DNA from: a virus
IMG/VR virus record: IMGVR_UViG_3300006104_000013
Location: 35,553 to 99,552 of that record
DNA: 64,000 bases
Direction: 5' to 3' (one strand)
Positions 4,564 through 59,132 of the stretch are shown here, piece by piece. The notes beneath the pieces were generated by a model, which worked only from the letters and a program-made list of their open reading frames with translations, ran no database searches and was not told the origin of the DNA. Position 1 is the first letter of the stretch, and every line of letters begins with the position of its first letter. A program made the translations under genes and the position numbers.

Positions 4564-4572
4564 GAGGGCGGG

Positions 4573-13887: not shown

Positions 13888-13889
13888 AC

Positions 13890-22800: not shown

Positions 22801-25109
22801 TCTCGGATGAAGGACATTTTGAGCCGATCCAAGGCGACCCAGCCAAACAGCGGGCCTACCACCTGGATGTTTTGGGGACGAACGCGACAACTGTGGCCCC
22901 CAGCCTCCGCAGCCGCAAGTATATGACGAAGGAAGAGCAGAACGAAGCCGGAGCGCGGATGCGGGACGAATTGGGATTCAACGGCGATATCAAAGTCCTT
23001 GAAGACATCCGCACGATGCCGCTGGCCATGGGGCGAATCCAGCATGCAGTGACGACACGGACTCTGATCAACAAACTTGATTCCATGGGTAAGGCCATGG
23101 GGCTTGAGCTCGTCAAAGAGGGACATGAAGGCGGAGACCATTTCACAGTCAACCATCCGGCATTCAGCATCATGAAGCCGATGTTGGAATGGAAGCCAAT
23201 AAGTAAGGAAGACCTGGAAGATAGGGGTAATTTTGTCCACGACGGAAAGGTCTACAAGGGAGATCCGGACGACGTCGAGAACGCCTCTTTGCTGAAGAGC
23301 TACCGAGTCAAAGGGGATGAAATCCAGCAGCATGCCCCGGTTACGCGCGAGAGTGACGGGTCAACGGTCATGCAAGCCGTACCCATCTCGATCCACCGCT
23401 CATTTGAAGGCCCGTTGCGGGCGATCCTGACGTCGAAGCCGGGGCCGATCTATCAGGCCGTCATGCGGCTCAAAGCGACGGTTACACATATGGTCCTTCT
23501 CTTCCCCACCGTCCACTTGGGGATGGAACTTGGCCGTGCCCTCCCGACTCTGGGTGGGAAAATGTTCACGGTCTCTTTCTGGAAGCAAGCTTTGCAGGAC
23601 ATGGGCGACAAAGAATTCATGTCCTATGCCATCCAGCACGGAATGGACCCGATCGGCAGCTTCTATGAGCACCAGGACATTTCGACTCTGTCCTATGACA
23701 AGGGGCTGATGCCGGGGAAAAGCCCCCCGGCGAAATTGCTCGGCCTCGCTGGCGATCTGGTCAGTAAGGAATTTGGCAATGCTCTGCGTAAGGGCGCTGA
23801 TAAATTCGGCGATTTTTACACCAACACATTGCTGTGGAATCGAGTTCGCCAACTCCAGGTCGGGCTGTTCCGCTCCACGATGGAGGCCGAAACACAGCAT
23901 CTGGCCAAGAAGATCATGGCGCAGGACCCGACGGTGACTCTCGACGAGGCCAGAGAAAAGGCGAAGACCGCTGCGGCATGGATGGCTGGGAACGTCAGCA
24001 ATCGCTATGCCGGGGCTCTTCCACTGGAGTCCATGGGCGAACCGGCTCGCAAATTCTGTAACATCATGCTGTTCTCTCGGATGCTGACCGTCGGCAACTG
24101 GGGCGCAATGAAGGACATGTTCCACGGGATGCCGGGCGATGTCTATTCGTCGATCAAGCAAGCTTGCGGCGAGAATGTCGCTGATCTGGCCAAAAGCGCG
24201 GGTAAGCGTAAGGCCCTAGCTGCCTTCGCCATCGATATCGGCATGATGTACGCCATGAATGCTGGCCTTCAATCAGCATTCAGCATTCTCAACAAGGACA
24301 AGACGGAAGACGAAGAAGTTCAGGGTTACATCGATCGGTATCATGCGGCGATCAACGATGTCGGCAATGACCCATCCCTGTTGCTCGACCCCACCTTCAT
24401 GATTGAACGGATATCTCCTACTTTCGATAATGATGTCGGCGCGGAGAACCGGTTCAAATTCGGCAAGAATATTGAGGGTGCCGATATGTATGGACGCTCT
24501 CCATTTGGTAAAATCGGTGAAGACCTCTTGGGTGCCATTTCCCATCCGCTGAAGATGATGGGCAACAAGATGAGTACCTTGGCCCGTCCGATCATCAGCA
24601 CCATTACCAATGCAGATCCATTTACCCACGATGCCATTTATGACGAAGATGCCCAGGGAGTATGGGCGAATGCTAAGGTTGTTGGCGATGTGGTCAAATA
24701 CTTCATGGAACAACAACTTCCGAGCCAGGAAATCGATTCCGTATCGTCGTGGATTCAAGGGGGAGATGACGCCCATGATTCGATGATTAAGTCTGTGTTG
24801 CCTATTTTGGGGATCACGACGAGAACAGGGAACTCCGGAGGCCCGTCAGCCAGTGTTGCCGCCCAAGTCAAGCGTGAGCATGACCGGACGGTCAAGAATG
24901 CTCGCCGTGAGGTGTCAAAAGACATCCGCGCCGGAAACCTTGATAAAGCGATCGATTATCTGTCAGAGCACGGAATGACGAGCGAGCAGGCGACCAAGTA
25001 CGTGCTCAGCCGTGGGAAACCGAAGGATTACACCGCCGCTCAACGCAAGCTGGTGTCTGAATATGGAACGGATCTTCAGAAGGAACGCGCCGACGAGGCC
25101 GACCAATAG
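13890..25109 (+). CDS. Giant polyvalent protein: PPase-like, SF2 helicase, MTase, HNHP domain
   Basis: About 3739 residues from ATG 13890 (an in-frame TTG lies at 13878). Visible domains follow. At about 640-770 is an inorganic-pyrophosphatase-like polyvalent domain (KDKDHVDAFIGD). At about 1420-2000 is an SF2 helicase with Walker A GTGTGKT at 1460, DESQ at 1546, SATP at 1647 and QEEGRIYRTGQ at 1949. At about 2070-2250 is a methyltransferase with EPSAGHGA and catalytic NPPF at 2150. Two related repeats (INALAKE, MNALAKQ) follow, then an HNHP...SQQD JAB-like domain near 2525. A long helical region with hydrophobic segments ends the protein. Such DarB-like proteins are packaged and injected, and are thought to protect entering DNA; that role is inferred here. 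Confidence 0.88.
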   Translation: MDVTMPDGTVVNNVPDDMSKSDFVAKAKANGAWNPSWDAPQKSQNPGSDDQPGILESGLKGFAKGVIGSAKSLKTTAVGDALHPENDAPEGEPDSVDKLMADPNWWHHGAGWAAKIGAGLGGVAPGMGAAALASAPFGGPEDPLGAAAGTAAWAGVSAMQELPEAYRRNLKNGDDAETAYNKAWKDSGIAAATGALMNIVPGMKAFKGAADATGKISADEAAKAYLKNLVFHTFGTGPAMGAAQDIAQSEVDTGKAPDAQDLALNAAVMGLTGGVQAAIHHGVAKVLPQKAATEGTPNKEVPPPATTGHYVEPTVTGGFQVFGPDQQPVANGLHKTEDLAAAHANSLNAAATEPANTPVDQAAAVQRQGDQQLEGALAQETGDELPPDVPPAVPNGPSLSGLNKPKEPTATGGDEQQTVSEPNATLLHQQKQLQDGLRPAQYFPNETTPLPLPDGMQEVKTDRGVFHINPKLTSEEEVHQKAAEGRIGDLLNLGPYNKDDINNRVATGEQPVAVTERTPDGTEVRAAHGTGQTAAEQAAYFEQTKTPGNTIAVEHPLETVAKRIENAQAAPPAESESPQTPAAPSVESGATPPIDEKTPGTRKNPIDVKTAEDLRAAEENIDHEPTPAQKTASNYEHGHIRLHGLDIGLENGKGSKRTGIGEDGRKWTAAMKAAYGYVKGTIGKDKDHVDAFIGDHVESDKAFIIDQKNLATGEFDEHKVVLGARDEAEAHKIYDGSFSDEEGPARRMATTEVPIHDLKEWLANKSKTQEEAAPHFAEKAEIEAAKEKLKAAISRHPASTIFKIKDAIAATGLDSATARSLLKEVAEEAGLENKSGSFFTSKAGEKLSAFSAVPNPPRRLSTWIKSKGGIKNEGEELTNAIRQRPGLVNNKTGMTHEDAALAAWQAGYFPEHGSPKEDGTPPDISAFLKRLDEDIRGNKQFSEHDTEELEAFNDAISRNEEISKLADEHDIPTSGLTQAEFYDKLRESMSLRDMARLQKEQEDSHLAAMAEAEARQKEWMDQRGEAWEPDWEPKGRPRTLKDLQDEYEREELARRASEGEGSPDASESGSSDASEEGAGSRERSSGDQGGNEDLRNKSIGDAIGLTSEAIAAADKAAKAEADKASKLEQHKLEKSQSKLRKSGQKSAESQKDGLFAKAAEGDQGDLLSQPKPKAEWGSANKLVSTERAEAIREALRAKMRSQISSGLDPETIMLGTELAVYHIEAGARSFADFAGRMIADLGDKIRPFLKMWYNAARDYPGMDDTGMTPYEEVRKFDHNGEFNVPDLSGDLERDSGNAEIGDSVGKPDVQSKGDRATQGSGRGDERAEEGRVRPDSDIGISPDGTASVGEGGDSEVQAEASGARQRAAERGGQPGGYDVGEHGPAIIHIGAESVGKTAGDSPELAKKEAAQAKANKLEVKPGLNNIRETLPYLLPGQHDDIHKAEQRFAKPDGHGMLFSNGTGTGKTFTGGGIIARFVRQGKGDILIVAPSQGIVADWQKALAKIGIESSVLESTTTAGKGVVLATYANLGENRHLADRNWHLVVADESQKLMANENGEPTGALNHFRAITNHPDGLSTKANMQLRDLNDRLDEVTAIAQGKKPPTPEMSREKASELSSELNRELNKKRNDLIDKFSQEPRSKAVFLSATPLPYVKAIDYANGYLFHYPKVEKTGAYNQADGRGQFLMENFGYRMRTGKLTEPDSNVDSGIMERAFHEKLKREGSLSTRRLDVDADYDRKFVLVNDAVGHKIDSLMEFLREADNGKFRHIAEIVNENFDYLSRMRLLEAIKANHFVPIIKKHIEMGRKVVVFHDYNEGGGMNPFDLSNVPNAEVPLRVNGKDEMVNLQDLAREFHDRNPEAKKMDFSQFKAPIETMRDAFPAALFYNGNVPEKARAQAKMLFNQDGSGRDIIVVNSAAGEAGISLHDTTGAHQRVLINLGMPIKPTTAIQEEGRIYRTGQVTDALFRYGNTGTNWERWTFAGKIADRAGTAENLAMGNEARALKEAFINAFNDSDEYSPSKDEGKGGKESDRSGAAEMSEFDRAKSYYWAQQKKTGRRDQREGIDYFPTPEPIGQKMVEWADIKPGDKVLEPSAGHGAIARWFPEHSDRTLIEPSGELASRAALASPGAKVLDHNFEDLHKVNKYDAIVMNPPFGQGGKTAIDHLALAASHIREGGRIVALLPDGPAANKRLADFLVEHNYLHDVGVIKLPESVFEKAGTAVRTHVVVLEKHSDHNSMADGPGKFEGSAIHTDKSNAKDIKELFDRIEHVSLPGRIEPTVKEVESVPDAKGNISAGGHDYVLSTAQNGDFLVKPKKYLADDYHRINALAKENNGGYGKDDKSFRFKTESDRSEFLKALASGAEPKPSQTAGFGVDFEKAQAVHSKTGKDLFVAIPQSRVETDKFHQMNALAKQFDGAYSAWKGKGAVPGFQFPSEAAREAFINAATEEKIGPRGAADNDEMPDITPHQEARGEVLKRGESDGNEHNAFVDREGKIIYETSGKNDSVEFSNAILKRLMDQKESITIHHNHPSNRPLSQQDFLLLSYPGIDHVVAHGDGVMSSATLTELGRSIVGTGASSHADWEKIVRKVKRDVDESLFSAYEAGEIGSVPTMSEQRMALGQALHQSGLIEYHSTHDVARGEPAFNYAVDSGVTGAISSVKRLKKPTAEMEDDRLHRSTWTGSVDDGIADLPSKTEKNGSDGQGGKSGFGGHRFDDQAQSQIDQDRSATGSLNGLAGGSEPVEKPDGQKGGPNPRGTSDSDELTETQRTNRQQVAQKIKEGVEEHKESAKTLWKAIQMICAPMATGTDKGKVIAKQFANSIRDGLYRMNQTIDMLAKGFSPEQLGNMWRALDDTCVRHSMEERDFIAENINRIQAKMAEKWIERGMPEDEAMEKVFPAAMEAAKIEARGELEKREKAMAEEKFGIFSLPDDQRDIVMDLSKQADQLWKEALNANLVSGQGLPRWTPRMLAMVSDEGHFEPIQGDPAKQRAYHLDVLGTNATTVAPSLRSRKYMTKEEQNEAGARMRDELGFNGDIKVLEDIRTMPLAMGRIQHAVTTRTLINKLDSMGKAMGLELVKEGHEGGDHFTVNHPAFSIMKPMLEWKPISKEDLEDRGNFVHDGKVYKGDPDDVENASLLKSYRVKGDEIQQHAPVTRESDGSTVMQAVPISIHRSFEGPLRAILTSKPGPIYQAVMRLKATVTHMVLLFPTVHLGMELGRALPTLGGKMFTVSFWKQALQDMGDKEFMSYAIQHGMDPIGSFYEHQDISTLSYDKGLMPGKSPPAKLLGLAGDLVSKEFGNALRKGADKFGDFYTNTLLWNRVRQLQVGLFRSTMEAETQHLAKKIMAQDPTVTLDEAREKAKTAAAWMAGNVSNRYAGALPLESMGEPARKFCNIMLFSRMLTVGNWGAMKDMFHGMPGDVYSSIKQACGENVADLAKSAGKRKALAAFAIDIGMMYAMNAGLQSAFSILNKDKTEDEEVQGYIDRYHAAINDVGNDPSLLLDPTFMIERISPTFDNDVGAENRFKFGKNIEGADMYGRSPFGKIGEDLLGAISHPLKMMGNKMSTLARPIISTITNADPFTHDAIYDEDAQGVWANAKVVGDVVKYFMEQQLPSQEIDSVSSWIQGGDDAHDSMIKSVLPILGITTRTGNSGGPSASVAAQVKREHDRTVKNARREVSKDIRAGNLDKAIDYLSEHGMTSEQATKYVLSRGKPKDYTAAQRKLVSEYGTDLQKERADEADQ

Positions 25110-27405: not shown

Positions 27406-30400
27406 ATGGGAACGACTTCAATAAACAAGGGGTATCTTGTCCCAACGCTAAATGGCGATGCATTGACGTGGGGAAGCCAAGTCAACTCGTCGATTGGGTT
27501 TCTTGACGCCAATGTCGCCGGGGTTGCCCCTGTTTCGACGACAGGTGGGTCTATCAACGCTTTGACGGCCCTCTACAACTCGATCCCGCTTTATGAATAT
27601 ATGGCGATTTCGTTGACTGGGGCCTTGGCCGGGACCCTCACCTACACCCTTCCGGGGGCCTCTGGTGCGTCAACTTATGGCGGGTACGCCTTTATCCGCA
27701 ATGCGACGACAGGGGCGTACACGGTCACAGTCAATACGTCAGCGGCCGGGTCCGTTGGGGTTGTCATTCCGCAGGGAACCACATGCTTGGTTTGCTCTGA
27801 CGGAACGAATGTCTATTTGGTTGGAAACTCCCAATATGGGTTGCCGACACTCAATGCCGGTGGATCGGCAGATGTCCTGACCGGAACATTCTCCCCATCG
27901 GCTGTCCTATCAGATGGTCTGGTCGTCGAAGTCATCGCGTCATATGCCAATGCCACGACCGCACCGACGTTCCAAGGAATCACCATCACGAAATGGGGCG
28001 GCCAAGCTCTGGTTCCTGGCGACATTTATGGATCTGGCCACCGCCTCCTTCTCTGCTGCGTTGGAAGTGGCACTCGGTGGGAGCTGACGAACCCGGCTAC
28101 GAATATGCCGTACACGGTAAATACCGGGGCAAATTCGTTGGTCCAGCTCGACTCTCTGGTCAGACTCCCAGCGCTCGATGCGTCCCTGCTGACCAACGTC
28201 ACAGGAAGCAATACGCTCACATGGACGTCGATATCAGCGTCTCAAGCTCTTGTGGCCAAGAACGGATATCTCTGTACGTCGGCATCTTCGCTTCAGCTTC
28301 CGACTCCCTCCATTTGCGCCGTCGGTGACACCATCGAAGTCATCGGAGTCGGACAGGGCGGATTCCTGCTGGCCCCGGCCAGTGGGCAAACTATAAACTT
28401 CGGGAATACATCTGTTTCCTATGGGTATGGATTCAGCGGGAATCAATACGCGACGATTCGGATTGTGTGCACGGTTGCCAATAGCACCTGGGAAGTCGAG
28501 TCGTCGGTTGGAACAATTACCAGCGTCCTTTACCTGCTTGACCCCTTCTGGAATAACGTCACGTTCTTTATGCCGCTCTCGACTTCGGCTATACCCAGCA
28601 CGGAAGCGAGCAACAGCGGGTTGACGATCACCAATACTGGGGCCGTCTCCGGTTCGTCGTCGCAGCCCCTTTTCGGAACTGGGTACTCAGCATCATTTAA
28701 CGGATCGTCTCAGTATCTATCCTACGGGGCGGCAACCCCGCCGTTCATGTTCACATCGAATGTGACAATCGAGGGATGGTTTTACCAGAACAACAGAACG
28801 GCTCAGCAGGCACTGTTCGATACTCGCGCATCGACCAGCTCAACGACGGGGGTCATGCTCTACACGGCAGCGACGACAGGAAACCTTGTCCTCTGGCTGA
28901 ATAATGGTGCGTTGATCACGACCTCGACTCCGATCCCCGCTTCGCAATGGAACCACATCGCGGTCACTTGCAATGGCCTCTCTGGGGTCACGGGGACTTG
29001 GACAATTTGGTTGAATGGAACCGCGATCGGAACCGGGTCATCCACGGTTCTGGCATCGGATGGATGGTTTTATCTGGGGTCTATCCATGGTGGCGGAAAT
29101 TACTACAGTGGTTTTGCGACCTACGTGCGAATTACCAATGGTGTAGCGCGGTATGCGGCGAAATTCACGCCGCCGCAATCTGCGTTTGTTGCTCAATTCG
29201 ACTCTTACGCCGATCCGCTTTGGAACAATGTCCTTTGCCGACCGATTCCAAATGCGACTCCATCGCTAAGCTACGACACCTCTGGCAATGGATGCGCTTT
29301 GACGGTGTCTGGGGCATCAACAACGTCGGTGTCAAAACAAGATGCATACGCATTCAATGCAAGTATCAGCAATAATTATGTGCAGTATGCATCGGCGAAT
29401 GAGAACATCTATGGTGACTTCACCATTGAAATGTGGATCAACCCGCTGACTCTTGGGGCCCCTCAAGTTGACTGCAATTTCTTTAACACAAGCACCAGTA
29501 TATTCACCGGCACCTATTCCGCTTTGCTGATGTTCCCGTCCTTGGGGGGCTATGTCGCTGCTGTTGGCGGGACTGCCTTCTCTACGACGACGTCACTAAC
29601 GGCTGGAAACTGGTATCATTTTGCCCTTGTTTACCAGGGTGGAACGGCGACTCTGTATGTGAATGGTGTGTCTACGGGGTCATCGTCGCAGGCTCCAGGT
29701 GCTGTTGCCACCGGCGGCAACCTTTTCATTGCCGGTTATGGGAGCGGATCTGGGATACCAGGGTCGTATTCTGGTATCCGGGTGTCCAATTGCGCACGGT
29801 ACACGACGAAGTTCACTCCGCCAGTAAGCCCGTTCGCTGGACAGGTTTCCCTGATCTACGATGGTCTGTGGCAAACGGTCTCGTTTATGCCACGCGCCGC
29901 AGCTAGCAACACAGGGTCAGACCTCTCTGGAAATGGCTTGGCGCTCACATTGAATGGCGTCACGACGTCGTTGTCGTCAACTCAGGATACCTATTCGTGG
30001 GTGTTCAATGGGACGAGCTATATTTCGGTCGCGTCGCCCGCATCGTCTTGCATCTTCCCGGCCGATTTCAGCATCGAAATGTGGGTGAACCTGTCGAATA
30101 CGACTGGAACCCAGGTTCTGATCGACACGTCCGCATCCGCAGGCAGCGCTTCAGGCTTCGTCTTTGCGATTGTTTCTGGTGTGCCGACATTCTCGTCTGG
30201 AGGGTCGGTGATTGCCGCCGGTCCAGCTATAACGGCCGGGGCGTGGAAGCACATTACGGTGACGCGCCACGGAACCGCATTGATGATCTTCTCCTCTGGG
30301 GTCATGGGGACAATGGCGACGTCTTTCCAGACCAGCATGACCGATACCAACCTCTTCATTGGCCGGGCGGCGACATCATCCACGAATTTCCTGACTGGGA

Positions 30401-30492
30401 ATATTGCGGGGATGCGGGTCACTAAAGCATCTCGCTATTCGGCCAATTACACCCCGCCGATGAACGTCTTCCTGACGAATGGAGCCAATTGA
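27406..30492 (+). CDS. Tail/receptor-binding protein A with three LamG-like domains, 1028 aa
   Basis: Residues 1-150 form a virion-attachment domain (INKGYLVPTLNGDALTWG, then YAFIRNATTGAYTVTVN, then PQGTTCLVCSDGTNVY) shared with the next two genes. Three concanavalin/LamG-like modules follow, at about 425-590, 645-805 and 860-1020. Each carries SFNGSSQYLSY-like, VTIEGWFYQ-like and WNHIAVTCNG-like strands and ends in a RYAAKFTPP-like motif. Such modules bind carbohydrate in phage fibres and adhesins, so host-surface binding is likely. No enzyme active site is seen. It is the first of three tandem paralogues. Confidence 0.75.
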   Translation: MGTTSINKGYLVPTLNGDALTWGSQVNSSIGFLDANVAGVAPVSTTGGSINALTALYNSIPLYEYMAISLTGALAGTLTYTLPGASGASTYGGYAFIRNATTGAYTVTVNTSAAGSVGVVIPQGTTCLVCSDGTNVYLVGNSQYGLPTLNAGGSADVLTGTFSPSAVLSDGLVVEVIASYANATTAPTFQGITITKWGGQALVPGDIYGSGHRLLLCCVGSGTRWELTNPATNMPYTVNTGANSLVQLDSLVRLPALDASLLTNVTGSNTLTWTSISASQALVAKNGYLCTSASSLQLPTPSICAVGDTIEVIGVGQGGFLLAPASGQTINFGNTSVSYGYGFSGNQYATIRIVCTVANSTWEVESSVGTITSVLYLLDPFWNNVTFFMPLSTSAIPSTEASNSGLTITNTGAVSGSSSQPLFGTGYSASFNGSSQYLSYGAATPPFMFTSNVTIEGWFYQNNRTAQQALFDTRASTSSTTGVMLYTAATTGNLVLWLNNGALITTSTPIPASQWNHIAVTCNGLSGVTGTWTIWLNGTAIGTGSSTVLASDGWFYLGSIHGGGNYYSGFATYVRITNGVARYAAKFTPPQSAFVAQFDSYADPLWNNVLCRPIPNATPSLSYDTSGNGCALTVSGASTTSVSKQDAYAFNASISNNYVQYASANENIYGDFTIEMWINPLTLGAPQVDCNFFNTSTSIFTGTYSALLMFPSLGGYVAAVGGTAFSTTTSLTAGNWYHFALVYQGGTATLYVNGVSTGSSSQAPGAVATGGNLFIAGYGSGSGIPGSYSGIRVSNCARYTTKFTPPVSPFAGQVSLIYDGLWQTVSFMPRAAASNTGSDLSGNGLALTLNGVTTSLSSTQDTYSWVFNGTSYISVASPASSCIFPADFSIEMWVNLSNTTGTQVLIDTSASAGSASGFVFAIVSGVPTFSSGGSVIAAGPAITAGAWKHITVTRHGTALMIFSSGVMGTMATSFQTSMTDTNLFIGRAATSSTNFLTGNIAGMRVTKASRYSANYTPPMNVFLTNGAN

Positions 30493-33400
30493 TGGGCAGC
30501 GTTACAACCTACAAGTCTTATCAAGCTCCGACGGTCAATGGTGACAATCTCACCTGGGGGCAGGAGCTTCAGAATTTTCTGACTCTAGCTGACCTGAATA
30601 TGGGTGGCGTCGTCAGCGTTTCGGTGGCCGGGAATGCGAATGTCGTTGCCTCGACGACTTCGTACAACACCCTGAACGCAATGACCCCAGGAAGCGCATC
30701 GTTTATGATGCAAAAACTGATCGGGGCTCTGACGGGGAATATCCAATATCAGCTCCCAGCCGTAAGCGGATTCTATATCGTTCAGAATGGCACCACCGGG
30801 AACTATACGATCACCTTGGCCACTGTCACCGGAGGATCGACTGGAATCATTCTCCCGTTTGGTTCGACGATTATGGTGTGTTCGGATGGGACCAATGTCT
30901 ATGAGGTCTCGTCCGGGGTCACGTTAATCCCCCCACAAGCGGCAACTGGAACGTCTGACGCCATTCTCTGCCCGACAGTAGGCATGTCGTATCAAGATGG
31001 GCAGGTGGCGATCGTAACGGCAACGGCGGCCAATATAACGACGTCCCCCACACTGAACGGACTGACCATTACCAAATGGGGTGGACAAGCACTGATCGCT
31101 GGGGATATCTCTGGCGCTGGTCATCGCATGCTGCTTGCCCTTGTTGGAACAGGAGCTCGATATGAGCTGCTCAACCCAGCGTCGCCCTTTCCCTATACCG
31201 TGGGGACCGCCGCAAACAACCTGTTGCAGACCAACGGATCGAACCAGCTCCCGGCCGTTGATGGCTCACTGATCTATAATTTACCGTCCGTCGGCGGTAT
31301 CCCCCTGACGTGGAGCACCGTGACGATCAATACGGTGATGACGACCAGGAACGGCTACGTGGCCAATGCCTCGAATTATGTCAATTTCCAGACTCCTCCG
31401 CTTGGTGCCATCGGAGATCCGATCGTTCTCAGCGCGAATGGAAGCGGCGGATGGGTGCTTACACCGTCGGTAGGTCAGACCATCATCTTTGGTGGCAATG
31501 GCTCTGCCGTCGGCATCGAATCCCTTTTTGGGTCGCAGAATGCAACGGTCCGGCTAACCTGCGTTGTGGCCAATCTGGTTTGGCAGGTGGAGTCCTTCAT
31601 TGGGACGATTTCTCTCGGATACAATGGCGATGCCTTTTGGAATGAGGTGTCGTGCCAATTGATGCTGAACGGCGGCATCGCCGACTCATCTGGCAACAAT
31701 CTGGTGTTCACCAACACCAACACGGTGACGGCATCGACCGCCCAAAACAAGTTTCTGCCGTATTCGGCCCTCTTCAACGGCACGAACCAATATCTGAACA
31801 TCACGACAGCAAAATCAGCATTCCAGTTTTCGGGGGAAGTCACTCTGGAAGGTTGGTTCTTCCCGACAGCGTTCAATGGAACGGCCAATGCGACTCTGTT
31901 TGACACCAGATTATCGACGTCATCCACGACCGGACTCTGGCTGTACACGACCCAGACCAACGGCTACCTGACTCTCTGGCTCAACAACGGGACTCTGATC
32001 ACGACAACATCAGTCCTTCCCAATGGGTCATGGTCGCATGTCGCAGTTACCAGGAATGGCAAGCCTGGGACCAATGGGACGTGGACAATCTGGGTGAATG
32101 GTTTGGCCATCGGCGCGGCATCGAGCTCGCTGAATGTTTCAGACGGATGGATGTCCATCGGCGGATCTGTTTCCGGCGGCAATTATTATGCGGGCTATAT
32201 CTCGCAGTTCCGTGTGACGAATGGAATTTGCCGCTACGCAGCCAGCTTCTCTGCGCCTACGGTTGCCCTGCTGACCAGCCAGGATGTTACGGCTGACATG
32301 GCATGGAACCGGACTGTGGCCCAGTTCGGATTCCAGAATGTCTTGACGGATTCGTCTGGCAACGGCCTGACGATGACAAACTCAGGAGCCGTCGCCTTCA
32401 GCGGGACGATTTACAAAGTTGGAGTCGCCTCGGCAGCCTTCTCGTCGAGTTATCTCTACAACGCATCAACGACAGCGCTCCAAACCACCGGTGATTTCAC
32501 CTATGAGGCATGGGTTTATCCCACAGCCAATGGTGCAAGCGGTGGAAGCATGATTGTGACTGCCGGTCTTTCAGGCTCGCAAGCCGGGATTATGCTCACC
32601 GCATCTGCGCTGACGGTTGCTTGTGTTATCGGTGGGTCAACGGTCATTACGACTGCCGCGTTAACAGCATCGCAATGGAGCCACGTCGCCTTTGTTCGAT
32701 CAGGACAGACTGTCACGGCTTATGTGAATGGCTCAGTTTCTGGGACACCGACGACCAACACGTCAGCAATCGCCTCGACGGGGATTTATATTGGCGGATC
32801 GACAACGGCAAACACAGGTTTCGCCGGGAATATGAACAATGTCCGGGTCAGCAATTTTGCTCGGTACACAGCGCCGTTCACGCCGTCTGTCTTGAATTTC
32901 CAGACGGCCCTTCCTCTGGCATATGACCCCTTCTGGAGAGATACAGTCTTCCTTCCCCGTGCGGCGACAGGGAACACTGGATCTGATGTCTCTGGAAATG
33001 GATTGGCGCTGACGCTGAACAGCACGATTTCCCAAGGGTATGTAACGACACAGGACCCCTATTGCTGGCTGTTTAATGGGTCGTCGAACAACATCGTTCC
33101 GTCTTCCCCTGGAGGAGCTTCGCAATTTGCGGGTGATCTTACCTTTGAATGCTGGGCATACCTGAACGCTTACGGAGCAAGCGGGGCGACCGGAACGGCA
33201 ACGAGCGGCTCATGCCTAATTGATACGCGGGCATCCGGAGCATCGGCAACTGGCTTCGCTCTGGCCATTGTCAACACCACTGGCCAATTCGCTTTCAATA
33301 CGAATGGGATTTGGACCTGTTCGACGATGACCGCGACTCTCAATAGCTGGACACATGTGGCGCTTGTGCGACTTGGCTCAACGATAACCGTCTATGTTGG

Positions 33401-33599
33401 TGGCGTTGCCCAATTCACCGTCACCTCGACTGCAAACTTCTCCGATACAAATTTGACGATCGGATCGACGACAGCGGCTGTCGGCGCTGCGCTTTATATG
33501 TCCGGATACCTATCCGGCATTCGGCTGGCTAAGGCCGCCCGCTATGCCGCTTCTTATACGCCACCCTCCTCTCCATTCCAGATCACGGGGCCGATGTAA
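30492..33599 (+). CDS. Tail/receptor-binding protein B, paralogue with LamG-like domains
   Basis: The start is ATG 30492, overlapping the previous stop as TGATG, which gives 1035 aa. It has the same layout as the gene before it: an N-terminal attachment domain (YQAPTVNGDNLTWGQELQNF, LPFGSTIMVCSDGTNVYE), then LamG-like modules with VTLEGWFFP, SWSHVAVTRNGKPG and RYAASFSAP. The LamG parts have diverged more than the attachment domain, as expected if the receptor-binding ends are under diversifying pressure. Translation is probably coupled to its neighbours. Confidence 0.75.
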   Translation: MGSVTTYKSYQAPTVNGDNLTWGQELQNFLTLADLNMGGVVSVSVAGNANVVASTTSYNTLNAMTPGSASFMMQKLIGALTGNIQYQLPAVSGFYIVQNGTTGNYTITLATVTGGSTGIILPFGSTIMVCSDGTNVYEVSSGVTLIPPQAATGTSDAILCPTVGMSYQDGQVAIVTATAANITTSPTLNGLTITKWGGQALIAGDISGAGHRMLLALVGTGARYELLNPASPFPYTVGTAANNLLQTNGSNQLPAVDGSLIYNLPSVGGIPLTWSTVTINTVMTTRNGYVANASNYVNFQTPPLGAIGDPIVLSANGSGGWVLTPSVGQTIIFGGNGSAVGIESLFGSQNATVRLTCVVANLVWQVESFIGTISLGYNGDAFWNEVSCQLMLNGGIADSSGNNLVFTNTNTVTASTAQNKFLPYSALFNGTNQYLNITTAKSAFQFSGEVTLEGWFFPTAFNGTANATLFDTRLSTSSTTGLWLYTTQTNGYLTLWLNNGTLITTTSVLPNGSWSHVAVTRNGKPGTNGTWTIWVNGLAIGAASSSLNVSDGWMSIGGSVSGGNYYAGYISQFRVTNGICRYAASFSAPTVALLTSQDVTADMAWNRTVAQFGFQNVLTDSSGNGLTMTNSGAVAFSGTIYKVGVASAAFSSSYLYNASTTALQTTGDFTYEAWVYPTANGASGGSMIVTAGLSGSQAGIMLTASALTVACVIGGSTVITTAALTASQWSHVAFVRSGQTVTAYVNGSVSGTPTTNTSAIASTGIYIGGSTTANTGFAGNMNNVRVSNFARYTAPFTPSVLNFQTALPLAYDPFWRDTVFLPRAATGNTGSDVSGNGLALTLNSTISQGYVTTQDPYCWLFNGSSNNIVPSSPGGASQFAGDLTFECWAYLNAYGASGATGTATSGSCLIDTRASGASATGFALAIVNTTGQFAFNTNGIWTCSTMTATLNSWTHVALVRLGSTITVYVGGVAQFTVTSTANFSDTNLTIGSTTAAVGAALYMSGYLSGIRLAKAARYAASYTPPSSPFQITGPM

Positions 33600-36500
33600 T
33601 GCCTAATTATTCACCAAACAAAGGGTTCGCGGTTCCGGTTATCGGTGGGGACGCCAACATTTGGGGAAACCCAGCAGGAAGCTATCCCGGACTGAATGAG
33701 ACGATCAATGCGCTGGATGCAGCTCTCGGCCAAACGGTCAATGTAAACTGCGCTGGGTCCGCCAATATCACGCTGACATCCGGCCAGTACGGGGCATTGA
33801 TTCTGAATCTGACCGGAGCATTGACTGCGAACATCTCCGTCATCCTGCCGCAAGCGGCGTCAGTCAGCAATTCTGGCTGGTATGTCGTTCGCAACAATAC
33901 GACCGGGGCATACACGATCAATGTCGTGACAGCCTATTCTGGGTCAACTGGTCCTAATATCCCACAGGGGTCAACATCCCTGATCTATTCCGACGCACAG
34001 AATGTCAGGCTGTCTGGTTCGTCACTGAACCAGATGATTTCGTTGACGGCCGCCGGAACATCGGAAATGTTAACGGCGACGATATCGCCATCCATTACAC
34101 TTGTGGATGGCCTGATCATCGAAGTCACAGCGGCCTATGCGAACACAACGGTTGCTCCGAAGTTCAATGGGCTCACTATTACCCGTTGGGGGGGGCAGCC
34201 GCTGGTCCCTGGGTGCATCTATGGCGCAGGCCATCGTCTGCTGCTGTGCTATTCGGCTTCTGCGCTTCACTGGGAGCTGATCAACCCTCGGATTCCTCTG
34301 GCGTACAGCGTCGGTTCGTCCGCAAATGCATTGGTCCAGCTTACGGCTGCCGCGAAGATCCCTGCTGTCGATGGGTCTCAGCTCACCAATCTTCCTTTCG
34401 GATGGCAGACGATCACAGCCAATCAGTCTGGGGTAACAAAGACCGGGTATGTCTGCAATTCAGCATCACAATTGACGGTTACAACCCCGGCATCCGCATC
34501 GATCGGAGACCAGTTTGCCGTCGCCGCTTATGGGGCAGGTGGGTTCTTGCTCAGCCCTCAAGCGGGGCAGACGATTCAATATGGGGCGACCGCAGTTAAT
34601 TCTTCGGCCGGGCTATCAGGGGCGCAAGGTGCTGTTGTTCGGTTGGTTTATGCCGCTTCAAACCTATGGATTGTTGCCGCCGGTGTCCTGTCCAGCGCCG
34701 GGACAACGCAGGACCCCTTCTGGAACGACGTCACGTTTTATATGCCGCTATCGACTCTGGCGATTCCGTCATCTGATGCATCAGCTAACGGCATTGCCGT
34801 AACCAATAATGGATCTATCGCAGGATCGACGACTCATACCCAATATGGGGCATATGCCGCGTATCTGGGTGGTGGTGGAAGTGGTCAATACCTTTCAATC
34901 CCCGCCAACAATGCCTTCAAATTCAGCGGCTCCATGACTCTGGAAGGCTGGTTTTTCTTCCCCAACTTCACAGCGGCAGGCGCATTGTTCGATACTCGAT
35001 CGGCAAGTGGATCGACGACAGGCTTGCTTCTGCAAGCGACAGCATCAACAGGGCTTCTGACCCTGAAGGTCAACAATGCTGTTCTTATCACCAGCAGCTT
35101 CGCCCCAAGCCTCGGCGTGTGGAACCATATCGCTGTCACCTGTAACTCCCTTACTGGTACGAATGGCGGCTGGACAATCTGGATCAACGGTCTGTCAGCG
35201 GGGACGGGCTCTCTCTCGATCAATCTGAGTGATGGCCTTCTCAACATCGGGGCCGCGGCGAACCTTACAAATTATCTCAACGCCTATGTGACGCAGGTGC
35301 GTGTCACCAATGGTATCTGTCGTTATTCAGGTCCATTCACGCCTCCGTTGAATGCGTTCTACACGACAGCGGATATCAATTTTGACCCTCAATGGTATCG
35401 CACAGCCTTCCGTCCGATTGCCGCAGCAACCCCAGCATCAAGTTATGACGCTTCCGGGAACGGACTCTCGCTCTCGATAAACAGCACGACGACATCTTCC
35501 TCATCGAAGCAGGACGCTTACGCCTTTGTCTTCAATGGCTCGTCCAACTATATCGGAAGCGCCGCCGCCAATACTGTTTTGTCTGGAGACTTTACGGTCG
35601 AAGCCTGGATTAATATGTCGTCGATTAGCGGCACCGCAACCACCAGAATTCTATCGTCGGCAGCCAGCGCAACCGGGGCTTTTTATTGGTCTGTTGGCAT
35701 CTATAACAACAGCGGCAACCCGGAAATCGATTTCTTCGATGGATCGGACTATTACAGCTCGGCTGGAGCCATCACATCGGCTGGGGTTTGGTATCATATT
35801 GCGGTTGTCCGCTTTGGGACGACGCTGGCTTTCTTTGTCAATGGCAGCCGAATTGGGACTGCCACCTATACAGGGACGCCAGGAGCTTCAAATGGAATCT
35901 TCATGCTTGGGGCTCGCGCCAATGGGTCGGCAACGATCGAATACTGGAATGGGAGCATCGCAGGTGCTCGCTTCACCAATGGAGCTCGCTACGTTTCCAA
36001 TTTCAACACCGGGATAGCCCCGCTCACGGCACCGTTCCCGGTCGCCCTTCCGACAACTTATGACCCGTGGTGGCAGGATGTTACGTTTATGCCCCGTGCG
36101 GCCTCCGTTATGGCCAACAGCGTTGACGTTTCGGGTGCGGCTCTAACACTTCTCAACACCGGCAGCGTCACCTCTAGCGCAACAAGCCGCCAGGACACAT
36201 ATGCATTTGTCTTCAATGGGGCCAACTATTTGTCCGTTGCGTCGTCGGCAAATGCTTATGCCTTCTATGGTGACTTCACTATCGAACTGTGGGTTTACCC
36301 GACTGCGGCTGGCGGCGGAAGCGGATCGTGCTTGATCGGGACACAAACCGCTGGCGGCGTTTATATTGAACTGAGTGCCTCCTACACAGTTGATCTGTCG
36401 AATTACGGCAGCTCGCACTATGCAACAACAGCGGCGCTGACCCCGAACCAATGGAGCCACATCGCTTTTGTTCGCTGCGGATCGGTAATCACGTCATATG

Positions 36501-36697
36501 TGAATGGCGGAAGCCCCGTTTCATCCACATTCACTAGCGTATTCCCCGCCGCAGGCACACTATTTGTTGGCGGAACAGGGTCGGCAGGTCAGTATTTCAC
36601 TGGAAGCCTTGCTGGCATTCGCGTTACAAAGGCGGCGCGATACGTTCCCAAGTTCTCGTACCCGACAACTCCATTCCTTACTAACGGAGCCACATGA
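33599..36697 (+). CDS. Tail/receptor-binding protein C, paralogue with LamG-like domains
   Basis: The 1032-aa protein overlaps the previous stop by one base (TAATG). The N-terminal block (NKGFAVPVIGGDANIWGN, IPQGSTSLIYSDAQNV) matches the attachment domain of the other two paralogues. Three LamG-like modules follow, with MTLEGWFFF, WNHIAVTCNSL, FTVEAWINM and FTIELWVYP as strand landmarks. It has no separate chaperone domain. The next gene is a DUF4376-like protein that may help fibre assembly. Confidence 0.75.
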   Translation: MPNYSPNKGFAVPVIGGDANIWGNPAGSYPGLNETINALDAALGQTVNVNCAGSANITLTSGQYGALILNLTGALTANISVILPQAASVSNSGWYVVRNNTTGAYTINVVTAYSGSTGPNIPQGSTSLIYSDAQNVRLSGSSLNQMISLTAAGTSEMLTATISPSITLVDGLIIEVTAAYANTTVAPKFNGLTITRWGGQPLVPGCIYGAGHRLLLCYSASALHWELINPRIPLAYSVGSSANALVQLTAAAKIPAVDGSQLTNLPFGWQTITANQSGVTKTGYVCNSASQLTVTTPASASIGDQFAVAAYGAGGFLLSPQAGQTIQYGATAVNSSAGLSGAQGAVVRLVYAASNLWIVAAGVLSSAGTTQDPFWNDVTFYMPLSTLAIPSSDASANGIAVTNNGSIAGSTTHTQYGAYAAYLGGGGSGQYLSIPANNAFKFSGSMTLEGWFFFPNFTAAGALFDTRSASGSTTGLLLQATASTGLLTLKVNNAVLITSSFAPSLGVWNHIAVTCNSLTGTNGGWTIWINGLSAGTGSLSINLSDGLLNIGAAANLTNYLNAYVTQVRVTNGICRYSGPFTPPLNAFYTTADINFDPQWYRTAFRPIAAATPASSYDASGNGLSLSINSTTTSSSSKQDAYAFVFNGSSNYIGSAAANTVLSGDFTVEAWINMSSISGTATTRILSSAASATGAFYWSVGIYNNSGNPEIDFFDGSDYYSSAGAITSAGVWYHIAVVRFGTTLAFFVNGSRIGTATYTGTPGASNGIFMLGARANGSATIEYWNGSIAGARFTNGARYVSNFNTGIAPLTAPFPVALPTTYDPWWQDVTFMPRAASVMANSVDVSGAALTLLNTGSVTSSATSRQDTYAFVFNGANYLSVASSANAYAFYGDFTIELWVYPTAAGGGSGSCLIGTQTAGGVYIELSASYTVDLSNYGSSHYATTAALTPNQWSHIAFVRCGSVITSYVNGGSPVSSTFTSVFPAAGTLFVGGTGSAGQYFTGSLAGIRVTKAARYVPKFSYPTTPFLTNGAT

Positions 36698-54579: not shown

Positions 54580-54876
54580 ATGGACGTCGGACACATCCTA
54601 TCCAGTCTTGGGATTCACCTAAAAAGCCACTCCCAGGGCACCCATCATTCGGTTTGCCCGCAGTGCAGCCACCTTCGGAAAAAGAAGACGCTGCAATGCC
54701 TTACGGTGACAATCGAGCCGGACATCATCCTCTGCAAGTGCCATCACTGCTCATGGTCTGGGGGCTGGCGCGGAGCCGGGGAACGCGAGGAATGGCGGCC
54801 ACCTCGGATGACCAAGAACGAATGGAAATTGAAGCGCGGAAAAGAATTTCGAGACAGAGTCAAAAGATCGTTTTAG
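54580..54876 (+). CDS. Primase zinc-ribbon-like protein, 98 aa
   Basis: The sequence LKSHSQGTHHSVCPQCSHLR, CLTVTIEPDIILCKCHHCSW and SGGWRG matches the zinc-binding domain of T7 gp4-type primases, with CPQC and CKCHHC ligands and the HHC-SWSGG loop. It is encoded separately, 9 bases before the TOPRIM-helicase. It would help recognise template or primer sites for the adjacent enzyme. Confidence 0.75.
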   Translation: MDVGHILSSLGIHLKSHSQGTHHSVCPQCSHLRKKKTLQCLTVTIEPDIILCKCHHCSWSGGWRGAGEREEWRPPRMTKNEWKLKRGKEFRDRVKRSF

Positions 54877-54885
54877 GGGGTAAGA

Positions 54886-57800
54886 ATGCTTTCAGGGGAT
54901 GTTATCGCAGCGATCGAGGCGAGGGGCCTTGATCCTGAATTGGTGGCCCGACTCGGGGTTGATGGGACGGACAAGCTGGATGGGGTGGCGATTGCGATCC
55001 CCTATTTTATGAATGGGCAGGTGGTCAACCACAAATACAGGACGCTGACCGGGGAAAAGCGCTTCATGCAGGACGCCAATTCGGTCAAGTGCTTCTGGAA
55101 CATCGATTGCCTTCGGGATGAAAATCTTGCCGATCAACCGCTGATCATCACGGAAGGCGAGTTCGACGCCATCGCCGCACTCCAGTCTGGATTTTTTCGG
55201 GTACTGTCCGTTCCGGACGGAGCCCCAAAGGAGGAGGTTGGCGACCAGGACTCCAAGAAATATTCCTACATCGACGACCGCTTCTATGAGGCGATCAAGG
55301 GAGTCCGGGAAATCATCTTGGCCGTCGATGGGGACGGGCCGGGCGCAAACCTGCTGAACGACCTCGCCCTCAAGCTGGGGAAAAGCCGCTGCAAGTGGGT
55401 CTCATACCCGAAAGGCTGCAAGGACCTGAACGATGCCCTCCGCAAATACGGCGTAAAGGGGGTAAAGATGACCATGGAGCGGGCTCAGTGGCTCCGGGTG
55501 GCTGGACTGTTCAGAATGAGCGAATTGCCGCCTGTGCCAGACGCTACGCCCCTTCCGTCGGGTATCCCAGGTCTGGAGGAGCATTTCAATCTCCGGATGG
55601 GCGATTTTACGGTCATCACCGGAATCCCTTCCCATGGCAAGGCGCTGTATATTGAAACCCCCATTCCGACTCCTTCCGGGTGGACAACAATGGGAGAACT
55701 TCGCGTAGGGGACGTTGTTTTTGGCGACGACGGAATTCCGTGCCGTGTGAAGCGCATAACGCCTGTGATGCATGACCACGACTGTTTTAAAATGATTTTT
55801 TCAGATGGAAGCGAGCTGATTGCGGACGCTGATCATCAATGGTTGACCAGCACAGATAAAGCGCGGAGAAGTGAGCGAGAGACGTTAAAAAAGCGCAACG
55901 GCAGGGAGGAGACTCTTCCAGGGGGGAGTGACCAGCGATGGAAAAGAACGTATCCGTCCGTCGTCACAACAAAAGAAATATCAACAACTCTTAGGGCGCA
56001 GGGAAAGTGGAATCACCAGATTCAAAACGCAAAACCTCTTTCCTTGCCGATGATGAATGTTCCGATTCCACCCTATACTCTTGGAGTATGGCTTGGTGAC
56101 GGATATTCTTCGTCAGGGGCTGTAACGTGCTTTGACCACGAAATTATTGACTGCGTTAGCGCTGATGGGGTCGTTGCTCGCGCAAGAAAGAATGATGAAA
56201 ATTCCTTCTGCTTGATTGGTATCCAGCCTGTTCTCCGTAAAATTGGAGTTTTAGGGAACAAGCATATCCCTGCATCATATCTCCGCTCGTCGGAAGAGCA
56301 GCGCCTAGAATTGCTTAAGGGGCTTATGGACACCGACGGTTATTGCGCAAAAGACGGGACTTGCGAAATAACCCTGACCAACCATCAATTGGCTATGGAT
56401 ACATACGAAGTTATTTGCAGCCTTGGCCTTCGTGCAAAATGGATGGAGGGAAGAGCCACCCTCAATGGCCGCGATATAAGTGCTAAATATCGCATTCAAT
56501 TTACCCCTCCGTATGCTGTTTTTAAGCTAAAGCGCAAGGCGAATCGCCAGAGATATTCCGGCCAAAACAGGGCGAAGACATCGTACAGAACCGTAATGGG
56601 ATGCGTTTCTGTCCCATCTGTTCCTGTTCGGTGCATCGAGGTAGACAGCCCATCCCATATGTTTTTGGCTGGTCGTGAAATGATCCCAACACATAACTCG
56701 TCTTTTGTGAACGATCTGGTCTGCCATTACGTCGAGCGCTACGGGTTCAACGTCACCTTTGCCTCGTTCGAGCAGCATCCCCAGCTCGACCACAAGCGCA
56801 ATCTGCGCCGCTGGCACGCCAAGGTGAAGGTCCATTCGGCGACTCGCGAGGAACTGGAGCTGGCCGACATCTGGATCGACCAGCACTTCAGCTTCATTGT
56901 CCCGGACGAAGACGAGGACGCGACTCTGGCGTGGTGCCTGGAGCGGTGCGCCGCGTCGGTCATCCAGCACGGCAGCAAGATCATCGTCATCGACCCATGG
57001 AACGAGATGGATCACATCAAGGCCCCGGACCAGAGTCTGACCGAATATGTGGGTTACGCGATCAAGCAGTTCAAAAAGTTCGCTCGGAAATACCATGTCC
57101 ATGTGATCGTCGTCGCCCACCCGGCCAAGCTGAAGCGTAAGGACGATGGCGAGTTTCCGATCCCTGATCTGTACGATATTTCCGACTGTTATTCGGACGA
57201 CACAGAGGCTTTAACCAAGCGCGGTTGGCTGCGTCACGAAGAAATGGTCGTCACCGACGAGGTTATGTGCTTTGACCTGGAGACCGGAGAAAACCGCTGG
57301 GAGAGTCCGGAGAGGATTGTCTGCCACGACTTCGATGGCGAGATGATGAATTTCGTGGGTTACGGATACGACCTGCTGGTGAGTCCAAACCACAGGATGG
57401 TCATCAAGCCGGACTGGAAAGAGCCTGTCGGAGATGGATCTGGCCGTGGCCGTCCGGTGAAATACCAGAAGGGGGTCTGGGGCTTTGAGACCGCCTCACG
57501 CCTTCCGAAAGCGCCGTTCACACTCCCAAAGGCAGGGACTCCGGTGGACGGAGACGATCCGGATCTTCTGACGATCGATGGGAAGGTAATTCCTGCCCTG
57601 GAGTTCGCCGAATTCATGGGACTCTGGGTTGCCGAGGGCTGCTGGCAAAGCAGTGGTATCAGCATGTGCCAAAAAGAAGGGCCGGTCGCCGATCGTATCG
57701 ACCATTTGATCGAGGCGTTAGGGTTCTCGGCCACACGGGCTGTTCATTACGACAAGCGGGGGCTCCTGCCGATCGTGACGTGGTATTTCGGCGTCAGAGA

Positions 57801-58425
57801 TAACCCGGAATTGATCCGCTGGGTACGCGGAAAAGCCGGAGAGAATTCTGCGACCCGGTGCATTCCTTACCCGTTTTTCAGCATGTCATCCCGTATCAAG
57901 GTCGAGTTCCTGAATGGGTATATTGCCGGGGACGGGTGCATCTCGAAGAACCGAGGAACGCCGTCGGCAGTGACGTCGTCGCCCCGACTCTATGGGGAAT
58001 TGCAGCGCCTTGCCGTCGAGCTGGGGATACCTGTGAATGGCCACCGCATCGCCGCTAAAAAGGAAAACCACAACGATACCTACCAGATCAATTTTGGAAG
58101 GGGTGAACGGAGTGAGGTCTGCGTTCGGACCTACCGAAACCTCAAGACGGTTCCGTACTCAGGAAAAATCTGGTGCCTGACCGTTCCGACCGGGGCCTAC
58201 TATGTCCGGCGCAATGGCTGCGTCGCGGTCTGCGGCAACTCCAGCCACTGGAACAACAAGCCGGACGCCGGGATTGTCGTGCATAGGTCTTCACCAACGG
58301 AGTCGCTTATCCGGATCGTCAAGTCGCGGTATCACGACTCCATCGGCAAGCCGGGCGAGAAGACGTACAGCTTCAACGACCACAATGGGCGTTATCAGTG
58401 GGTGGATGAAATCAATGAATTTTAG
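54886..58425 (+). CDS. TOPRIM-DnaB-like primase/helicase with two inteins
   Basis: The precursor has 1179 aa; removing two inteins (residues 253-604 and 768-1118) leaves about 476. TOPRIM: ITEGEFDAIAALQSG with a DGDG acidic pair. Helicase: Walker A GIPSHGK with S restored after splicing, Walker B IIVIDPWNEMD, sensor HVIVVAHPAK, motif 4 YDISD joined to SSHWNNK, and the basic RSSPTESLIRIVKSR near the end. This is a Twinkle/T7-gp4-like replicative enzyme. It is a member of the TOPRIM-helicase class, with its zinc ribbon in the preceding gene. Both inteins interrupt conserved motifs. Confidence 0.92.
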   Translation: MLSGDVIAAIEARGLDPELVARLGVDGTDKLDGVAIAIPYFMNGQVVNHKYRTLTGEKRFMQDANSVKCFWNIDCLRDENLADQPLIITEGEFDAIAALQSGFFRVLSVPDGAPKEEVGDQDSKKYSYIDDRFYEAIKGVREIILAVDGDGPGANLLNDLALKLGKSRCKWVSYPKGCKDLNDALRKYGVKGVKMTMERAQWLRVAGLFRMSELPPVPDATPLPSGIPGLEEHFNLRMGDFTVITGIPSHGKALYIETPIPTPSGWTTMGELRVGDVVFGDDGIPCRVKRITPVMHDHDCFKMIFSDGSELIADADHQWLTSTDKARRSERETLKKRNGREETLPGGSDQRWKRTYPSVVTTKEISTTLRAQGKWNHQIQNAKPLSLPMMNVPIPPYTLGVWLGDGYSSSGAVTCFDHEIIDCVSADGVVARARKNDENSFCLIGIQPVLRKIGVLGNKHIPASYLRSSEEQRLELLKGLMDTDGYCAKDGTCEITLTNHQLAMDTYEVICSLGLRAKWMEGRATLNGRDISAKYRIQFTPPYAVFKLKRKANRQRYSGQNRAKTSYRTVMGCVSVPSVPVRCIEVDSPSHMFLAGREMIPTHNSSFVNDLVCHYVERYGFNVTFASFEQHPQLDHKRNLRRWHAKVKVHSATREELELADIWIDQHFSFIVPDEDEDATLAWCLERCAASVIQHGSKIIVIDPWNEMDHIKAPDQSLTEYVGYAIKQFKKFARKYHVHVIVVAHPAKLKRKDDGEFPIPDLYDISDCYSDDTEALTKRGWLRHEEMVVTDEVMCFDLETGENRWESPERIVCHDFDGEMMNFVGYGYDLLVSPNHRMVIKPDWKEPVGDGSGRGRPVKYQKGVWGFETASRLPKAPFTLPKAGTPVDGDDPDLLTIDGKVIPALEFAEFMGLWVAEGCWQSSGISMCQKEGPVADRIDHLIEALGFSATRAVHYDKRGLLPIVTWYFGVRDNPELIRWVRGKAGENSATRCIPYPFFSMSSRIKVEFLNGYIAGDGCISKNRGTPSAVTSSPRLYGELQRLAVELGIPVNGHRIAAKKENHNDTYQINFGRGERSEVCVRTYRNLKTVPYSGKIWCLTVPTGAYYVRRNGCVAVCGNSSHWNNKPDAGIVVHRSSPTESLIRIVKSRYHDSIGKPGEKTYSFNDHNGRYQWVDEINEF
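55642..56697 (+). other. Intein 1 (class 3 features) in the helicase P-loop
   Basis: The intein has 352 residues and begins with Ala (ALYIETPIPTPSGWTTMG) instead of Cys or Ser, ending PTHN before extein Ser605. It has W in DHQWLT, C in RCIEVDSPSHMFLAG and T in the final PTHN: the WCT triad of class 3 inteins, which use an internal Cys to start splicing. A LAGLIDADG-type endonuclease is present (LGVWLGDG, LLKGLMDTDG). It interrupts GIPSHGK-S of Walker A, a known intein site in DnaB-like enzymes. Confidence 0.9.
57187..58239 (+). other. Intein 2 (class 1, Cys1) in helicase motif 4
   Basis: The intein has 351 residues. It starts with Cys (CYSDDTEALTKRGW) and ends VRRNGCVAVCGN before extein Ser; the penultimate residue is Gly rather than the usual His, as in other inteins of this kind. 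LAGLIDADG motifs are FMGLWVAEGC and LNGYIAGDGC. It lies between YDISD and SSHWNNK, a conserved DnaB-like loop, and is unrelated in details to intein 1. Confidence 0.88.
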
Positions 58426-58982: not shown

Positions 58983-59054
58983 GGCGAACGCTTGGACTCG
59001 AACCAAGGACCTTCTGGTTATGAGCCAGACGAGCTGCCGCTGCTCCACGCCGCC
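58983..59054 (-). tRNA. tRNA-Met (CAU)-like gene with a mismatched acceptor stem
   Basis: On the minus strand the cloverleaf reads: acceptor GGCGGCG, D-stem GAGC/GCTC, anticodon arm TCTGG-CTCATAA-CCAGA with anticodon CAT, variable AGGTC, T-arm CTTGG-TTCGAGT-CCAAG. The 3' acceptor strand is CGTTCGC plus C. G1-C72 and positions 4-7 pair (two wobbles), but positions 2-71 and 3-70 are G-G and C-C mismatches. No CCA is encoded. It may be a real phage tRNA with an unusual stem or a decaying copy. Confidence 0.75.
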
Positions 59055-59132
59055 GAACTAAAGGCCCACCGTTTTGCACGTGCGTGTGGTGGGCCGTGAC
59101 AAGAAGGATCGTAACCCACATGGATTTAGGTG

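Follow-up and report, generated by a model that had tools for sequence, protein, structure and literature searches.

One of the closest described systems is the DnaB helicase of Mycobacterium smegmatis (Msm), in which DnaBi1, a class 3 intein, occupies the P-loop (site b) and DnaBi2, a class 1 intein with a homing endonuclease (HEN) domain, occupies motif H4 (site a) (PMC6195587). Class 3 inteins are defined by positions B:12, F:4 and G:5 (PMC5222942; PMC6195587). The AceL NrdHF intein has Ala1, carries a Met-Cys-Thr triplet and uses its F:4 Cys in a class 3 mechanism that has been proven (PMC7891396), while an RDF intein splices fully with Gly as its penultimate residue, and the substitution G316H slows it (PMC5050341). 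Here, we analysed a replicative helicase gene with two inteins, located in a stretch of 64,000 nucleotides (hereafter the window) which forms the final 64 kb of the 99,552-base IMG/VR virus record IMGVR_UViG_3300006104_000013 (positions 35,553 to 99,552). Our analysis indicates that two homing inteins, with one site specialism each, have very probably invaded this phage primase-helicase of the T7 gp4/Twinkle type separately, and that both would be spliced out and kept mainly as selfish elements.

A phage primase-helicase interrupted by two inteins

The gene (54886..58425, + strand, as are all features given below for the helicase and its upstream neighbour) forms one open frame of 1179 aa with zero internal stops, encoding the precursor of a TOPRIM and RecA-type helicase with two inteins. 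The N-extein (aa 1-252; 54886..55641) comprises the TOPRIM domain (Pfam Toprim_4/Toprim_2) and the start of the helicase up to the Walker A sequence GIPSHGK, as delimited by alignment to intein-free homologues. The middle extein (56698..57186), delimited by homologue alignment and the family profile, resumes with the Walker A Ser at +1, includes Walker B (IIVIDPWNE) and ends at H4 with DLYDISD, and the C-extein (58240..58425), likewise placed by alignment to intein-free homologues, begins with the H4 Ser at +1 and ends with the stop codon. Excision in silico of aa 253-604 and 768-1118 yields a joined extein of 476 aa, which aligns over its full length with uninterrupted phage primase-helicases; in the helicase of Bradyrhizobium phage BDU-MI-1, the empty sites read GIPNVGKSTY (Walker A) and ISDSAHW (H4). 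The first-pass annotation of the window, made from the sequence alone, had proposed two inteins of 352 and 351 aa in one helicase, and with the uninterrupted homologues aligning end to end its boundaries prove right to the base.

TOPRIM, Walker A, Walker B and H4 are all present in the predicted spliced product. The joined extein matches phrog_239 (DNA primase/helicase) with E = 2.6e-72, and a search of structures with the family profile retrieved T7 gp4 (6n7i; E = 8e-122) as well as Twinkle, and DnaB more weakly. By these matches, the host protein is a T7 gp4/Twinkle-type TOPRIM-helicase. A DnaB identity was considered and rejected, as the match to the DnaB-like phrog_19 reached only E = 3.6e-17, and the DnaB model NF005852 found no match anywhere in the IMG/VR record. 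The aligned H4 segment of T7 gp4 is DLRGSGALRQLSD, and its position in the alignment means that the second intein site of the window falls in the same motif. The residues that follow inteins 1 and 2 are extein S253 in Walker A and S416 in H4, respectively; the helicase family alignment shows no variation at either, and both would also serve as the +1 nucleophiles.

Intein 1 at the Walker A motif

Intein 1 (352 aa, aa 253-604; 55642..56697) lies at the K/S junction of Walker A, reads A...PTHN and is flanked by GIPSHGK and SSF; its previously proposed location and its Ala start are borne out by alignment to the empty-site homologues. A phmmer search of the PDB with intein 1 retrieved the class 3 DnaB inteins 6rix, 6riy and 6bs8 (E = 3e-29 to 9e-28), and Foldseek with an AlphaFold2 (AF2) model (predicted local distance difference test score, pLDDT, 92) retrieved PI-SceI, 6rix (E = 1e-9) and 6bs8; the AF2 models of both inteins served for fold search only.

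Alignment to class 3 DnaB inteins, which the first-pass annotation had put forward as a check of its class 3 assignment, places the Trp-Cys-Thr (WCT) residues at the expected block B, F and G positions. With 6bs8 and 6rix as references, Trp67 (55840..55842) falls at B:12, Cys331 (56632..56634), the predicted initiating nucleophile, at F:4, and Thr350 at G:5, the latter being followed by the penultimate His351 and the terminal Asn352 (56689..56697 for the three residues). These five residues and His65 are invariant in 69/69 aligned class 3 sequences. Residue 1 (55642..55644), where the N-terminal nucleophile is absent, is Ala in 67 of the 69, and position 48 (55783..55785), which is numbered as in Msm DnaBi1, where Cys48 is the redox partner (PMC6195587), is Cys in 67 of them. 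Two LAGLIDADG motifs were recognised from the sequence, LGVWLGDGY at aa 147 (56080..56106) and LLKGLMDTDGY at aa 224 (56311..56343).

The relatives of intein 1 are numerous, with 723 matching phage records, and the aligned class 3 relatives share 35-53% identity with it. Their insertion site is the K/S or K/T of P-loops in 66 of 68 class 3 loci, which include terminases, helicases and other ATPases. The GC content at third codon positions (GC3) of intein 1 is 0.48 compared to 0.75 for the extein (z = -8), where genes of the window reach down to about 0.52. By all sequence tests, intein 1 is a standard member of the class 3 homing inteins of P-loops, and its splicing would proceed via a block F branched intermediate.

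Intein 2 at motif H4

Intein 2 (351 aa, aa 768-1118; 57187..58239) reads C...VCGN and is flanked by DLYDISD and SSHW, which places it at the H4 site ISD/SSHW, as supported by same-site relatives. Its assignment to motif 4, its Cys start and its Gly-Asn end had all been noted in the first pass and hold, as do the LAGLIDADG motifs noted for both inteins. In intein 2, these are FMGLWVAEGC at aa 143 (57613..57642) and FLNGYIAGDGC at aa 241 (57907..57939), the latter also covered by a Pfam LAGLIDADG_3 match (E = 5e-18). An AF2 model (pLDDT 90) retrieved HEN-containing inteins in Foldseek, together with AceL NrdHF as a full-length mini-intein match. In both inteins of the window, blocks B and F enclose a HEN fold and two LAGLIDADG motifs with acidic residues, and Foldseek searches with the two gave matches to PI-SceI and TliVMA.

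The family of intein 2 was traced through its splice junction. A DNA pattern for the GN/SxHWxNK junction found five IMG/VR loci, and in 5/5 the same helicase family carries an intein at the identical site; further relatives were added by a profile scan with the H4-intein alignment. IMG/VR scans with the extein alone or with intein 2 as a single sequence gave zero matches. The same-site H4 relatives (L346-L350 and L360-L367) are 33-59% identical to intein 2, and one further locus, L222 (CAJXKR010000033.1, from a metagenome-assembled genome of Desulfohalobiaceae), is the same H4-intein helicase as that on contig 3300027580_000036 (L346/L365).

In an alignment of 49 family sequences, Cys1 (57187..57189 in intein 2), His at B:10 and Gly at G:6 are invariant, though Cys1 was itself part of the pattern used to retrieve some of the 49. 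Position B:7 is Ser or Thr in 49/49, so that block B is of the TxxH type (SPNH in intein 2). Position F:4 is Cys in 48/49, represented by Cys330 (58174..58176), a second candidate initiating nucleophile, while Trp at B:12 occurs in 0/49. In intein 2, His69 (B:10) to Met71 (B:12) lie at 57391..57399, G:5 is Cys, the +1 residue is Ser, and the end is formed by an atypical penultimate Gly350 and the terminal Asn351 (58234..58239). A penultimate Gly instead of His is the rule in the family.

Distribution and origin of the two inteins

Among 236 non-redundant genes of the helicase family, the window gene is the only one (1) with both inteins; 9 have the Walker A intein only, 7 have an empty Walker A and the H4 intein, 2 carry the H4 intein on contigs that do not cover Walker A, and 217 have neither, counts which are biased and are not frequencies because some of the loci were fetched with intein queries. 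Scans with whole-extein and TOPRIM alignments returned about 240 loci, nearly all uninterrupted. An initial picture of a helicase family almost free of inteins was a result of ranking bias and was overturned by the scans with the class 3 alignment, the junction DNA pattern and the H4-intein alignment.

No intein interrupts the closest full-length exteins (50-58% identity), which points to horizontal gain. Intein 1 and the intein of L266 share 51% identity at an extein identity of 34%, and intein 2 and the intein of L347 share 56%, again at an extein identity of 34%. On the extein tree, at least 6 label changes are needed for the Walker A intein and 6 for the H4 intein. Pairs of alleles with and without the insertion were found for both sites. 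For Walker A, the flanks of L275 and L229 share 79% and 78% DNA identity on either side of a clean insertion of ~1.05 kb; for H4, those of L350 and L199 are 69% and 72% identical, with the subject joint at 4569/4573. Independent horizontal gain of each intein in this helicase family is, on these sequence comparisons, well supported, and the plus/minus alleles make homing testable.

Two probable homing inteins with separate site specialisms

The anatomy of the inteins, their sites, homology and empty counterparts, the family membership and the sporadic distribution were all observed directly. The intact LAGLIDADG motifs, the HEN folds and the sporadic distribution support homing. A class 3 LAGLIDADG intein would have homed to the Lys/Ser junction of P-loops, and a Cys1/Cys-F:4/Gly-Asn LAGLIDADG intein to motif H4 in helicases of this family. 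Translation would yield the 1179-aa precursor, in which the Walker A loop is split until intein 1 exits and the DNA-binding H4 loop until intein 2 exits, so that ATPase activity should be dead in the former state and DNA binding absent in the latter. Excision of intein 1 would run from Cys331 (class 3 branch) to Ser253 and on to cyclisation of Asn352, and that of intein 2, by the default class 1 route, from Cys1 to Ser416 and cyclisation of Asn351, leaving the 476-aa helicase.

Several points weigh against this account or limit it. The bias of the locus counts has been mentioned. In the partial locus L349, both intein 2 (59% identity) and the extein (62%) resemble those of the window to a similar degree, and the intein 2 copies of these two loci may be shared by descent. 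The GC3 of intein 2 is near the extein value (z = -2), and hence gives no sign of a recent arrival. Furthermore, intact LAGLIDADG motifs are no proof of an active endonuclease, and the splicing of both inteins, with its chemistry and its order, is predicted from sequence, as is the activity of their endonucleases.

Splicing class of intein 2

The first-pass annotation had described the two inteins as being of different chemistry. This stands for intein 1, which is class 3 by sequence, but is less secure for intein 2, since the latter carries the F:4 Cys beside Cys1 and its nearest solved relative by sequence, AceL NrdHF, uses a class 3 mechanism. From Cys1 and the Gly-Asn end, class 1 would be the default label.

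An alternative, which competes with this label only and not with homing, is that intein 2 starts via Cys-F:4 in a class 3-like manner, or via either cysteine, in which case both inteins of the window would share their first step. The near-universal Cys at F:4 in the family points in this direction, as does AceL NrdHF itself, for which the profile of the intein 2 family gives 52 bits and that of the WCT class 3 inteins 1 bit (partly on a 98-residue fragment). On the other hand, Cys is the second commonest residue at F:4 across inteins generally (PMC4031507), and its presence in intein 2 is therefore no proof of class 3. Intein 2 also departs from the class 3 definition in having Met at B:12 rather than Trp, Cys at G:5 rather than Thr, and Cys1; related RDF inteins have been classified as class 1 (PMC5050341); and the conservation of Cys1 in 49/49 suggests that this residue is needed, with the reservation on the fetching pattern given above. 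Altogether, we regard a start at Cys-F:4, or at either cysteine, as unlikely.

A related idea, possible though doubtful, is that the intein 2 family holds both start nucleophiles, Cys1 and Cys F:4, and that AceL NrdHF is a member which has lost Cys1 and now uses a class 3 mechanism. If so, the class 3 mechanism would have arisen a second time, via a Cys1/Cys-F:4 intermediate and independently of the WCT lineage to which intein 1 belongs, and the helicase gene of the window would carry one intein from each of two class 3 roots. It has been argued that class 3 splicing is unlikely to evolve stepwise from class 1 (PMC7664689), and the intein 2 family beside AceL NrdHF offers a concrete system for studying class 3 splicing evolution.

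Conditional switching and loss of splicing as improbable alternatives

The first-pass annotation had also suggested that the two inteins could act as conditional switches. In its explicit form, a two-key switch would place intein 1 under redox control by a Cys48-Cys331 disulfide and intein 2 under another signal, thereby delaying replication. Such a switch is possible in principle, since a splice-blocked precursor should lack ATPase activity or DNA binding, with each intein preceding an invariant serine in an essential motif. Intein 1 moreover has Cys48 and the F:4 Cys, which correspond to the disulfide pair (Cys48-Cys118) of Msm DnaBi1, and splicing of the latter is inhibited by H2O2 (PMC6195587). 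However, while the work on the Msm redox switch described Cys48 as non-conserved, the class 3 inteins that share it here come from many phages and proteins, and mutation of Cys48 in the Msm intein abolishes splicing (PMC6195587). A residue that is both widespread and needed for splicing need not mean a sensor, and its frequency weakens Cys48 as evidence of a specialised one. Both inteins of the window have also kept their HEN, in contrast to the responsive Msm intein, which had lost it, and the distribution is sporadic, with almost all close exteins being free of either intein. We found no support favouring a switch and consider it very improbable compared to the retention of two selfish homing inteins. 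Least credible is that one or both inteins are splicing-dead, leaving a helicase gene that is dead or yields fragments: intein 2 does lack a penultimate His, and splicing of both is read from sequence, but one open frame keeps every catalytic residue of the two inteins along with every invariant residue of the helicase, and the penultimate Gly is universal in the intein 2 family and is compatible with full splicing in the related RDF intein (PMC5050341).

Neighbouring genes in the window

Just upstream of the helicase gene and in the same frame lies a 98-aa open reading frame (ORF; 54580..54876) with a CPxC...CxxC pattern (CPQC...CHHC), which by comparison with relatives is the primase zinc-binding domain as a separate gene. 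The same split is present in BDU-MI-1 and in L027-L030, L033 and L034, while the domain is fused to the helicase in L035 and in more distant relatives. The possibility that the stop between the two ORFs marks a broken gene was rejected, as the split is common to the clade. Just downstream of the helicase gene, a lone tRNA-Met(cat) gene is found on the opposite strand (58983-59055, -) in a stretch without a clear protein gene.

Further away, three consecutive Laminin_G_3 genes of ~1030 aa each (27406-36697) are paralogues with 37-42% identity over their whole length, and probably arose when a tail or adhesin gene was duplicated in tandem. An ORF of 3743 aa (13878-25109) combines InPase, superfamily 2 helicase (ResIII, strawberry-notch type) and methyltransferase-like domains, as a large polyvalent phage protein.

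Comparison with known systems

The pairing of two intein classes in one phage enzyme had been called rare in the first pass. This does not hold, as shown by Msm DnaB. By sequence, inteins of two classes also interrupt L314 of IMG/VR, an AAA helicase ORF with an MCM-like C-extein: its Walker A houses a class 3 intein, and a second one, which reads Cys1...HN, lies before the Walker B-like CLDEL at GTA/CLDELDKM. Each of the phage ORFs L380, L384 and L435 (portal-like and terminase) contains two or three inteins that are class 1-like. Weak profile matches had raised them as class 3 carriers, which was rejected by eye, the Walker A intein of the L380 terminase reading Cys1...HN and the inteins of L435 and L384 also being class 1-like. 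In the literature searched, whose coverage was incomplete, no description of two inteins in one TOPRIM-helicase was found.

Intein 1 shows no material difference from the phage class 3 P-loop inteins (Bethlehem DnaB, TerL, RecB and others), for which a phage origin has been proposed; it shares with them WCT, Ala1, the LAGLIDADG HEN and the K/S or K/T insertion. Intein 2 resembles the inteins of mycobacteriophage RDF, nucleotidyltransferase and methyltransferase proteins in Cys1, His B:10, F:4 Cys, the Gly-Asn end and a LAGLIDADG-type length, but it is only 24-27% identical to the mycobacteriophage Gly-Asn inteins, its closer sublineage being that in H4 of phrog_239 helicases (31-59% identity). 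With AceL NrdHF (6zgq), intein 2 shares the SPNHRM block B, Met B:12, Cys F:4 and the lack of a penultimate His, whereas AceL NrdHF has Ala1 instead of Cys1, is split and contains no LAGLIDADG domain (PMC7891396). The host protein has the TOPRIM domain, RecA helicase core, Walker A and H4 of T7 gp4 and Twinkle, from which it differs by its separate upstream zinc-binding domain gene and its two inteins.

Msm DnaB is likewise a replicative helicase with two inteins, one of class 3 at Walker A that uses the P-loop Ser as +1 and a Cys1 intein with HEN in H4, the latter likeness being at the level of the motif. Ala1, Cys48, Asp62, His65 and Trp67 are identically numbered in intein 1 and Msm DnaBi1, and Cys331 and Thr350 correspond to Cys118 and Thr137 of the latter. 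The differences are that the host enzyme here is a phage TOPRIM-helicase, that intein 1 keeps the HEN lost by DnaBi1, and that intein 2, unlike DnaBi2, ends in Gly-Asn and belongs to a phage family. Overall, the observation of a doubly interrupted helicase is confirmed and its earlier interpretation is partly supported: the double-intein pattern is unusual in this helicase family, but each intein comes from a known phage lineage and the pairing has been published for DnaB. That the same two motifs, the P-loop with a class 3 intein and H4 with a Cys1 intein, have been struck again in a different helicase family indicates that inteins target both loops repeatedly and that neither site is an accident of a single gene.

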